From a virus, in IMG/VR virus record IMGVR_UViG_3300025701_000053, positions 1 through 24,175 of that record: DNA of 24,175 bases; one strand, given 5' to 3'. The position numbers were made by a program, and so were the translations under genes. Positions 3,228 to 6,438 of the stretch are shown piece after piece. How positions within the stretch are numbered: the stretch's first letter is position 1; every line of letters begins with the position of its first letter. Below the pieces are notes generated by a model. It saw nothing but the letters and a program-made list of their open reading frames with translations, did no database searches and was not told where the DNA came from.

Positions 3228-3469
3228 TAAGTTCCAGGATTATTTTTATTACCCCAGATTTTATCAACCGAAGCAAGACCTAGACCTCCAATACAGATTG
3301 CTGCTACAGCATTTACTAAAGTAGCATCAACTGGATATTCAGTATATAGATTAGCAACAAGAGCACCACATAATGTAACACCTGCTAATATCCCTACAAA
3401 TCTTTTAGATGATGGAGTTCCCTTTTCGTCTTTTAATAGACCTACAACCCAATTTATAATTTTTTTCAT
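3227..3469 (-). CDS. Holin-like two-helix membrane protein
   Basis: An 80-aa protein with a basic amphipathic N-terminus (MKKIINWVVGLLKDEKGTPSS) and two predicted membrane helices at about residues 23-42 and 49-68, joined by a short loop (TEYPVDAT) and followed by a charged tail. The motif GTPSSKRFVG before the first helix is typical, from memory, of holin-like proteins in Bacteroidetes phages. It directly precedes and overlaps the amidase by one base, which is the usual lysis-cassette order. The expected role is to form lesions in the inner membrane and release endolysin. It could instead be an unrelated small membrane protein. A class B box lies 42 nt upstream. Confidence 0.75.
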   Translation of the reverse strand: MKKIINWVVGLLKDEKGTPSSKRFVGILAGVTLCGALVANLYTEYPVDATLVNAVAAICIGGLGLASVDKIWGNKNNPGT

Positions 3470-3511
3470 CTTTATATATTATATTTAAGCACATGCGTCA
3501 GTGCATATAGT

Positions 3512-3519
3512 TATATATC
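3512..3519 (-). promoter_or_regulatory. Class B promoter-like box before lysis cassette
   Basis: GATATATA (minus sense), 42 nt before the holin ATG. The spacer holds an imperfect GCAC/GTGC inverted repeat. Confidence 0.5.
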
Positions 3520-3540
3520 AAAAATGAGCCTCTCTTTTAA

Positions 3541-4047
3541 CTAGATTTGTAGATAGGGCTTCCATTCTTCTGGAATATGTGAAACCTGTCGAAGTAACAT
3601 TAAGTAATGAGGTCTCTTTGGTTCTGGTATTTCTCTACCCCATTCTTCAAGACTTAAATCCGCCTTTTCATTATTACACTTCTTACATGCTGTTACAAGA
3701 TTCTCCCAAGTATTTTGTCCACCTTTTGATTTTGGCACAACATGGTCTAGTGTTAGCTGTCTAGTTTCTCCTTCTCCACAATAAACACATTCAAATCCGT
3801 CTCTTTTATAGATATTGTTCCTAGTCATTGGAACCTTATGGTGTTTAGTATTCACATATTTAGGCACTCTAATAATCGAAGGCTTCTGGATTATAAGCTC
3901 TGGATTATAGAGCTTAAAAGCCTCTTCATGTTCATAGACGACATTGGCATTTCCTTTATAAACGATAACGAAAGCTCTAAGACTACTTATAATTCCTCTT
4001 GGAGTATAACTAGAATCCAAAACTAGCGTCTTATTATAATCTTTCAT
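3541..4047 (-). CDS. HNH endonuclease, 168 aa
   Basis: The C-terminal half is a classic HNH zinc/beta-beta-alpha nuclease module: CVYC (C87, C90), LTLDHVVPKSKGG (D101, H102), WENLVTACKKCN (N116, C121, C124) and the following K128. The N-terminal part (KTLVLDSSYTPRGIISSLRAF) matches the conserved start of a widespread bacterial and phage HNH family that begins LNxxYxP. Such proteins cut or nick DNA and can be free-standing homing nucleases or packaging helpers; the sequence does not decide which. It lies directly downstream of the tRNA cluster, about 58 nt from tRNA-Leu(UAG), so both may be on one transcript. Confidence 0.88.
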   Translation of the reverse strand: MKDYNKTLVLDSSYTPRGIISSLRAFVIVYKGNANVVYEHEEAFKLYNPELIIQKPSIIRVPKYVNTKHHKVPMTRNNIYKRDGFECVYCGEGETRQLTLDHVVPKSKGGQNTWENLVTACKKCNNEKADLSLEEWGREIPEPKRPHYLMLLRQVSHIPEEWKPYLQI

Positions 4048-4104
4048 TTTGTTATTTTTATTTGAGCAATATGTTTATCTATGAAAATGAAAAAAGGTTC
4101 ACAG

Positions 4105-4186
4105 TACATCTGGAGAGACTCGAACTCTCACGCCTTGTGGCACTAGATCCTAAGTCTAGCGTGTCTACCAATTCCACCACAGATGC
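4105..4186 (-). tRNA. tRNA-Leu (anticodon UAG)
   Basis: Folds as a type II tRNA with long variable arm. Anticodon stem CTAGA/TCTAG encloses loop CTTAGGA, giving UAG, which reads CUA and related Leu codons. The T arm GAGAG-TTCGAGT-CTCTC is canonical. Acceptor GCATCTG pairs with CAGATGT, so the terminal pair is G1-U72 rather than G-C. The discriminator is A, and CCA is not encoded. Confidence 0.93.
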
Positions 4187-4849: not shown

Positions 4850-5143
4850 TACTTGAGGCGGGACTTGAACCCGCACGAACATTACTGTTCAATGGATTTT
4901 CTTACCTACTATAACTTTCGTTACCATCTTTCGATGTTTGGGGTCTGGACTTTCTCTCAATCATATCATTTCTGACTTAGACCACTCCTGTTAAGTCTCT
5001 ACACCTTCCAATTTCTTGGCTTGGCTCGGGATTGCCATTTAAAAGGTTTCCCCGAATTTAAGAGTGTATGCAACATAACCTTTCAGTTATGAGGCTCAAA
5101 ATTCCTATAAGTCCATCGTGTCTACCAATTCCACCACTCAAGC
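4850..5143 (-). tRNA. tRNA-Leu (anticodon UAA), interrupted by a group I intron
   Basis: Exon 1 is 5109-5143 and exon 2 is 4850-4900, together an 86-nt type II tRNA. The joined anticodon stem ATGGA/TCCAT encloses loop CTTAAAA, giving UAA (reads UUA). The T arm is GCGGG-TTCAAGT-CCCGC, and acceptor GCTTGAG pairs with CTCAAGT (G1-U72), discriminator A. The gene is split between U34 and A35 by a 208-nt insertion, the same site as the classic cyanobacterial and plastid tRNA-Leu(UAA) intron. Without splicing the tRNA could not fold, so the intron must be removed for function. An HNH nuclease gene ends 8 nt upstream. Confidence 0.92.
4901..5108 (-). other. Group I intron (IC3-type) in tRNA-Leu(UAA)
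   Basis: Self-splicing ribozyme candidate. Conserved blocks occur in the known order on the minus strand: internal guide region TTGAGCC (5093-5099), P4-region GGGGAAACC (5045-5053), GAGCCAAGCC (5018-5027), the R-type block GTAGAGACTTAACAGG (4987-5002), the S-type block GAGAGAAAGTCC (4947-4958), and a terminal G (4901). Exon CUU can pair with GAG of the guide, putting a U-G wobble at the 5' splice site. By recall, each block closely matches the Anabaena tRNA-Leu intron, which is somewhat longer (about 250 nt). No ORF is encoded inside. Confidence 0.9.
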
Positions 5144-5150
5144 ATTGTTA

Positions 5151-5591
5151 CTAATCAACTGTACGATTTGAGACATTTCTGCCTCTAAATGTATGGGTTT
5201 GACTATGGCAGTTAGGACACAAAAGTCTTAAGTTTTCTAAAGAATTATCGGATCTAATTCCTGAAATATGATCAAGTTCTAAACCCAATCTATTATTATT
5301 CCATTCATTAATTCCACATTCAGAACACTTATACTCCATGTAACCCTCTCTGATTAATCTCGCCTTTAGTTGATGAGTTACCATATGTTCTTTACCTGAA
5401 AATACATCGCTTAATTGCTTCTTCACTTTATAAGTACCTTTACCAGATGTATCATCTAGTGGCTTGTACAAATCTAATTTTGTCGCATATCTTTTAAACG
5501 TTGAAAAGGCTAATCCTAATAAATCAGCAGCCTGTGCCATTGATTTACTATTATTGATAGCTTCTTTTATTTCATCTTTTGTCTTTTTCAT
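5151..5591 (-). CDS. HNH endonuclease with N-terminal helix-turn-helix, 146 aa
   Basis: Residues about 1-45 look like a helix-turn-helix (EIKEAINNSKSMAQAADLLG, then AFSTFKRYATKL). The C-terminal half is an HNH module: CSECG, LELDHISGIRSDNSLENLRL and CPNCHSQT give the two Cys pairs and the D-H...N...H catalytic core. This architecture is common in free-standing phage homing endonucleases. The frame is open to an ATG at 5669, which would add 26 atypical residues; I prefer the ATG at 5591 because the helix-turn-helix starts there and a class B box lies 25 nt upstream. The gene ends 8 nt before the intron-bearing tRNA-Leu, suggesting a link with mobility of that locus. Confidence 0.85.
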   Translation of the reverse strand: MKKTKDEIKEAINNSKSMAQAADLLGLAFSTFKRYATKLDLYKPLDDTSGKGTYKVKKQLSDVFSGKEHMVTHQLKARLIREGYMEYKCSECGINEWNNNRLGLELDHISGIRSDNSLENLRLLCPNCHSQTHTFRGRNVSNRTVD

Positions 5592-5823: not shown

Positions 5824-6438
5824 TTATTTTGTCATTTTTTGTGCAATTAGAGTTTTACCTCTACGGATTCTATTCTTAACAGTCTGTAGTGTGATATTAT
5901 GCTTATCTGCAATATCTTCATACTTCATCTCATTTAAGAGTCTATCTTCTAAGATTTCTCTGTAGAGCGGCTGTAGGCTTTGGATTGCGTCCAGTGCACT
6001 TCCGTACTGCTTCATAAGAGCGCTCTCGTCATCCATAAAATCTTGTTCAGACTTCATCTCATATTCGATAAGAAGGTCATTTGCAGTATAGCCAATTTTA
6101 TTAGACTCAGTAATTTCAACTCCAAAATCACGCATACCTTCAATAGAATAAGTACGATTACGCTTACGGATCCAACCTAAACACTCGTTGAATGCAATTC
6201 TATACAACCAAGTAGTGATTTGATATTGTGGATCGTATTGGTCAATCTTAGTCCATAATTTAGTAAGTGTGTTAACTAGTATATCATCTGCTGCATCATT
6301 ATCTTTAACTACATTAAAAATATAAGAACGTAGACCTGGTTTCACTTTATTATGAAGTGCAACGTAGTCCTTCTCAGTTCTAGATGTAAAAAAGTTTTCT
6401 GATAGTTCGCGGTAAGATGTTTGTTTAGCTTTTGACAT
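5824..6438 (-). CDS. ECF-like RNA polymerase sigma factor, 204 aa
   Basis: Region 2 spans about residues 25-95 (YIFNVVKDNDAADDILVNTL, then TKLWTKIDQYDP and the promoter-melting/-10 segment TTWLYRIAFNECLGWIRKR). Region 4 spans about 147-200, with a helix-turn-helix (YEDIADKHNITLQTVKNRIRRGK). It should redirect host RNA polymerase to phage promoters, the job of gp55 in T4 late transcription. The linker between regions 2 and 4 is longer than in a minimal ECF factor and rich in acidic residues. It has its own class A promoter about 25 nt upstream. By inference, its targets are the class B boxes that precede the tail, packaging and lysis genes. Confidence 0.9.
   Translation of the reverse strand: MSKAKQTSYRELSENFFTSRTEKDYVALHNKVKPGLRSYIFNVVKDNDAADDILVNTLTKLWTKIDQYDPQYQITTWLYRIAFNECLGWIRKRNRTYSIEGMRDFGVEITESNKIGYTANDLLIEYEMKSEQDFMDDESALMKQYGSALDAIQSLQPLYREILEDRLLNEMKYEDIADKHNITLQTVKNRIRRGKTLIAQKMTK

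Follow-up and report, generated by a model that had tools for sequence, protein, structure and literature searches.

The window, by which we mean the whole stretch of 24,175 nucleotides analysed here (IMG/VR virus record IMGVR_UViG_3300025701_000053), carries on its minus strand a tRNA-Leu(UAA) gene at 4850-5143 that is split by a group I intron (Table 1). Upstream of the tRNA is a gene encoding a freestanding HNH endonuclease, whose stop codon lies 7 nt from the tRNA. This neighbour is an addition to the original prediction, which was made from the letters of the window and did not mention it. Just upstream of the HNH gene we noticed a small sigma-70-like factor with regions 2 and 4 (5824-6438, minus strand). 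A second, different HNH gene (phrog_16726; 3541-4047, minus strand) is located 56 nt downstream of a tRNA-Leu(UAG) gene (4104-4186).

Table 1. Features of the split tRNA-Leu(UAA) locus in window coordinates. L numbers are our labels for the loci compared.
Feature	Position	Strand	Evidence
tRNA-Leu(UAA) 5' exon, last base U34	5109..5143	-	Score of joined exons; 34/35 identical to intronless L127 allele
tRNA-Leu(UAA) 3' exon, first base A35	4850..4900	-	Score of joined exons; 49/51 identical to L127
Group I intron, 208 nt, without ORF	4901..5108	-	RF00028; covariation in 18 relatives; empty sites in L127 and L453/L465
Internal guide GAG	5095..5097	-	P1 pairing with 5'-exon CUU (5111-5109), U-G wobble at splice site; columns 21-23/43-45 paired in 18/18
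P7 5' strand GACUU	4993..4997	-	Paired 100% in 18 sequences; fifth pair changed on both sides
P7 3' strand AAGUC	4948..4952	-	Pairs with 4997-4993; 18-sequence alignment
HNH endonuclease, freestanding, 146 aa; helix-turn-helix-like part at the N-terminus, followed by HNH	5151..5591	-	PF01844, E 4e-6; phrog_10822, E 7e-36
Promoter-like leader, common to intronless L127	5660..5689	-	Shared GGAACGTTCTTT; match to consensus TTGGAA-18-TACAAT

Structure of the split tRNA gene and its intron

The tRNA-model check proposed with the original prediction was run with ARAGORN on the joined exons, which fold as tRNA-Leu(UAA), the identity predicted. That an ordinary finder might miss or misplace the gene proved correct as well. 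With default settings ARAGORN reported five other tRNAs in the whole window and not the split tRNA-Leu(UAA), and with introns allowed it named the gene tRNA-Tyr(ata) and misplaced the intron, giving it 206 nt. Phage tRNA introns are easily overlooked, because such finders either give the gene another name or fail to report it.

The Rfam group I model RF00028, with the core helices P3-P9, matches 4922-5118 on the minus strand over its full length with 52.2 bits, barely above the cut-off of 50 bits (E 2e-12 to 2e-14). The proposed covariance search thus returned a group I match rather than none, although an Rfam gathering run with fast filters over the whole window missed the intron. The introns of 18 phage tRNA-Leu genes were aligned together with short stretches of the adjoining exons, and P7, which is absent from the Rfam structure, was added as a pseudoknot. 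In the 12 helices of the group I core including P7, 95.7% of the cells are paired, compared with fewer than 40% when the helices were slid as a control. Both sides have changed in 31 of the 50 pairs, and the covariation score of 0.492 lies above those of 500/500 shuffles (0.185). P7, the guanosine-site helix, forms 5/5 pairs in every sequence and covaries at its fifth pair. Together with the Rfam match, the covariation bears out the assignment to group I.

The predicted ends of the intron also stand. The U-G pair of P1 at the 5' site is found in 18/18 aligned phage relatives, and the window intron ends in a G, which recurs in relatives extracted without requiring it. The pattern of 5' exon plus P1 has a single match against 0.00 expected, which like the covariation is well outside what chance would give. 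By its sequence the intron is an intact ribozyme, because the core helices pair and covary and the P1 U-G pair is universal in the set, and such an intact intron is very probably able to splice.

Empty alleles, the HNH family and intron homing

Intronless tRNAs, which were caught by one of our tRNA patterns, served as empty alleles. The phage of L127, whose terminase is 73% identical to that of the window, carries an uninterrupted tRNA-Leu(UAA) without intron and without HNH, and its exons are identical to those of the window at 83/86 bases. The leader GGAACGTTCTTT stands directly before the tRNA in L127, whereas in the window the HNH gene lies between leader and tRNA; matches of the TTGGAA-18-TACAAT type are no commoner than in shuffles. 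A second pair of loci, L453 and L465, is collinear, with 81-85% DNA identity near the tRNA and an HNH gene upstream in both. A 212-nt intron is present in L453 and not in L465, where the gene is joined exactly at the predicted splice sites U34/A35. Since the empty alleles join at the same sites, the predicted interruption of 208 nt between U34 and A35 has exact boundaries. The pair also shows that intron and HNH are separable. In L453/L465 (~3450-3760) the tRNA-Leu body is visibly more diverged than its flanks (85%), a pattern that resembles the replacement of a short tract around the tRNA. The tRNA cluster of L453 that includes the introned tRNA-Leu also contains a GOLLD RNA (1118-1581, 205.7 bits) with a tRNA inside.

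In the AlphaFold model of the window HNH (pLDDT 87.7) the N-terminus is helical and resembles a helix-turn-helix, and the C-terminus is HNH. C89, C92, H108, N120, C125, C128 and H129 are invariant in 30 relatives, and the motif with its zinc cysteines is intact. For the nuclease part, a sequence search of the PDB turned up no relative with a solved structure; one marginal match, to a CAP repeat, was at the N-terminus. Foldseek with the model had no match below E 0.001, and the resemblances to HNH and helix-turn-helix proteins that it listed were weak.

We collected the 80 closest HNH relatives by protein similarity alone; most members of the family are freestanding. All but one (79/80) have a tRNA within 500 nt. 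In 50 the tRNA closest to the HNH gene is a tRNA-Leu, where 19.3 would be expected given the tRNA content of the same loci (0/2000 permutations, a test that treats the relatives as independent, which phylogenetically they are not). In at least five more of the 80 the neighbour is a tRNA-Leu gene with an insert, misnamed by ARAGORN, and HNH-containing introns that ARAGORN had placed in tRNA-Ser or tRNA-Thr were reassigned to tRNA-Leu by exon sequence. Most HNH-adjacent tRNA-Leu genes are intronless. Elsewhere the HNH gene precedes or follows an introned tRNA, or is contained in the intron (L097, L450, L444, L443, L448, L459, L116, L036). L150 and L223 also have it within the intron, there on the opposite strand, which is uncommon for an intron ORF. 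These viruses show all combinations of intron and HNH.

Inserts of other kinds were observed behind HNH genes. A tRNA-Leu-like sequence in L463 (3398-3504) and L471 (3458-3564; the same contig as L139) has a conserved hairpin of ~21 nt in the anticodon loop, 5-14 nt after the HNH gene, in which the stem is kept and the loop letters vary; it is not group I. In L456/L457 (3433-3578) a tRNA-Leu located 7 nt after the HNH gene has an insert of 62 nt behind C32 that CGAGG/CCTCG closes, and Rfam gave no match there other than tRNA.

We consider the best model, and a fairly probable one, to be collaborative homing of an ORF-less group I intron in tRNA-Leu with the HNH endonuclease. After transcription the intron would excise itself with a guanosine cofactor, using P1 on the 5' exon and its own last G at the 3' splice site, so that an ordinary tRNA-Leu results. 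In a mixed infection the HNH would nick or cut the intronless tRNA-Leu region of a rival, and repair of the cut would copy the HNH gene and the nearby intron in the same tract; the intron, once present, would block re-cutting. Splicing, cleavage, co-conversion, homing and this block are inferred, while the intron with its boundaries, the empty sites, the HNH genes at tRNA-Leu and the combinations of the two elements are observed. In the window a separate endonuclease gene stands near an ORF-less intron, and L127 supplies the empty allele. The narrower claim, that the adjacent HNH mobilizes the window intron, appears to us about evenly balanced.

The main competing explanation, which we hold to be possible, is that intron and HNH hitchhike independently of each other, each with a preference for tRNA-Leu. 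In that case the HNH would move only itself, like SegB of T4, and the intron would travel by ordinary recombination or reverse splicing. L453 and L465 fit this explanation in differing by the intron alone, and so do the many tRNA-Leu introns without an HNH nearby; that of LR756501 has no such HNH within its 10-kb locus. The HNH tree fits it too, as intron-associated HNHs are scattered in it among those without introns. Against independence stands a comparison of dereplicated tRNA-Leu loci not chosen by HNH, in which an HNH lies within 400 nt of 9/30 introned and 1/45 intronless genes (p 8e-4, with kinship ignored and the introned genes mostly from one phage clade). The several HNHs inside introns also speak for a connection, as does the fact that window and L127 differ by intron and HNH at once.

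Two further points weigh against the collaborative model. Because the HNH tree mixes intron and no-intron positions, the HNH plainly homes or persists without the intron; and since an intron is lacking in most tRNA-Leu genes next to an HNH, the intron cannot serve for self-protection in every case. We tentatively propose a previously undescribed HNH homing family concentrated at phage tRNA-Leu genes, together with a mobile intron pool, in which all stages in the birth of a composite intron may coexist. The candidate stages at this one gene would be the tRNA with neither element, the tRNA with only an HNH beside it, the tRNA with only the intron, the introned tRNA with an HNH before or after it, and the intron that contains the HNH on one strand or the other. 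Provided that the HNH family indeed cuts tRNA-Leu, the locus offers a natural series for the meeting of endonuclease and intron, and having every combination in related viruses makes the question of how mobile introns acquire DNA cutters directly testable.

Distribution and ancestry of the intron

A complete scan of IMG/VR with the pattern of tRNA-Leu 5' exon plus P1 gave 92 contigs. After a check of the 3' exon, about 85-90 viral contigs have a tRNA-Leu intron at the same site; among the ~90 viral loci are some that other searches supplied, and three are proteobacterial in type. A broad group I core pattern was set aside, with many unrelated matches mixed in. The 735-kb phage LR756501 also has a tRNA-Leu intron. 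The tRNA-Leu introns of three viral contigs, L363, L384 and L423, are of the proteobacterial type; they are not to be counted as phage introns because they probably lie in host tRNAs at prophage ends. In cells, among the matches listed, same-site introns occur in cyanobacteria and beta/gamma-proteobacteria, with single cases in genomes labelled Planctomycetia, Eremiobacterota and unclassified. Same-site introns were seen in MAGs labelled bacterium (L274, with two copies), Planctomycetia (L276) and Eremiobacterota (L304), and could reflect lateral transfer or contamination. Related phage introns interrupt tRNA-Arg(UCU), also between 34 and 35 (L016, L108, L118, and L461 at 2165-2362), as well as protein genes, and other tRNAs are interrupted in L053, L073 and L110.

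The closest terminases to that of the window belong to uncultured huge phages (best LR756500) and to Tenacibaculum, PAU and Flavobacterium phages, in agreement with the predicted T4-like phage; because the last three are among them, a Bacteroidota host is plausible. The nearest introns in our collection are likewise from phages, in tRNA-Leu (L448, 80%) and tRNA-Arg (L461, 79%). In a maximum-likelihood tree, built like the tests below from phage and bacterial introns, the window intron falls among phage introns and apart from the cyanobacterial clade (98.5/94), with deep nodes weak. Proteobacterial introns form a clade of their own (95.7/97), and the sister of the LR756501 intron is one from the capsid gene of a pelagiphage (95.2/100).

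The original prediction called the intron cyanobacterial/plastid in type and saw it as carried sideways from there by phage. The first part holds for the U34/A35 site and the similar core, both of which are also common to proteobacterial and the ~85-90 phage introns. The second part is not supported by our data, and direct lateral transfer from cyanobacteria or plastids is in our judgement very unlikely. Besides the shared site and core, it can claim the AU test, which did not reject the window intron alone with cyanobacteria (p-AU 0.18). Against it, the best bacterial intron in the collection is only 66% identical to that of the window compared with 80% for phage, the cyanobacterial clade is separate, the relatives include phage introns from tRNA-Arg and from protein genes, and a single clade of all phage tRNA-Leu introns plus cyanobacteria is rejected (p 0.008). 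An earlier AU rejection of the cyanobacterial grouping (p 0.003) was dropped, because a fast search had been used for its constrained trees; fair searches gave the value of 0.18. The present tree leans towards placing the window intron outside cyanobacteria, and the simplest reading would be a pool of tRNA introns circulating in phages, not a recent acquisition from cyanobacteria.

It is more improbable still that the insert is a dead, non-splicing remnant in a tRNA pseudogene, since in spite of the Rfam score close to the cut-off the core helices including P7, the U-G pair and the terminal G are all intact and the exon stems are kept by compensating changes against L127 (CTTGAG/CTCAAG v CTCGAG/CTCGAG).

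Relation to known systems

Group I introns of tRNA-Leu are a known kind of element, and so are freestanding homing endonucleases of phages. The cyanobacterial tRNA-Leu intron belongs to group I subgroup IC3. Cyanobacterial and plastid tRNA-Leu(UAA) introns resemble that of the window in tRNA, U34/A35 site, similar core and lack of an ORF; compared with the cyanobacterial introns fetched, however, the window intron is at most 66% identical, in a separate clade, in a phage and beside an HNH gene. The tRNA-Leu(UAA) introns of beta/gamma-proteobacteria share tRNA and site but form their separate clade in cellular genes. Bonocora and Shub reportedly described, in 2001, I-Ssp6803I as the homing endonuclease of a cyanobacterial tRNA-fMet intron, directed at the anticodon region of the tRNA gene. 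That enzyme is intron-encoded, of another nuclease family and in a cellular genome, whereas the window HNH is freestanding and in a phage.

To our knowledge, the known cases of collaborative homing are all in protein genes. In phages, an ORF-less intron and a separate freestanding endonuclease share one target in such cases (reviewed in PMC3984707). The window has the same two elements, but it differs in that the putative target is a tRNA gene and that in related loci the HNH also occurs inside the intron and on both sides of the tRNA; it is a candidate case. According to the same 2014 review, phage introns had until then been known from protein genes only, despite the many phage tRNA genes (PMC3984707); the ~85-90 IMG/VR viral contigs contradict this. 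In the portions of the Lak megaphage study consulted (Devoto 2019, PMC6784885), introns in phage tRNAs are likewise described, one possibly encoding a tRNA; they are called enigmatic there, without a group I assignment. Many group I introns are reported in open-licence papers on Jug and crAss-like phages, and the portions consulted do not mention tRNA genes as targets.

Phage tRNA genes counter tRNA-cutting host defences (PMC13096335), and the locus bears on how phages keep and spread such genes. In T4 and T6 the freestanding homing endonuclease SegB is linked with phage tRNA genes (PMC13096335, PMC2988022). SegB is of the GIY-YIG fold and does not favour any one tRNA isotype, whereas the family of the window is HNH and enriched at tRNA-Leu.
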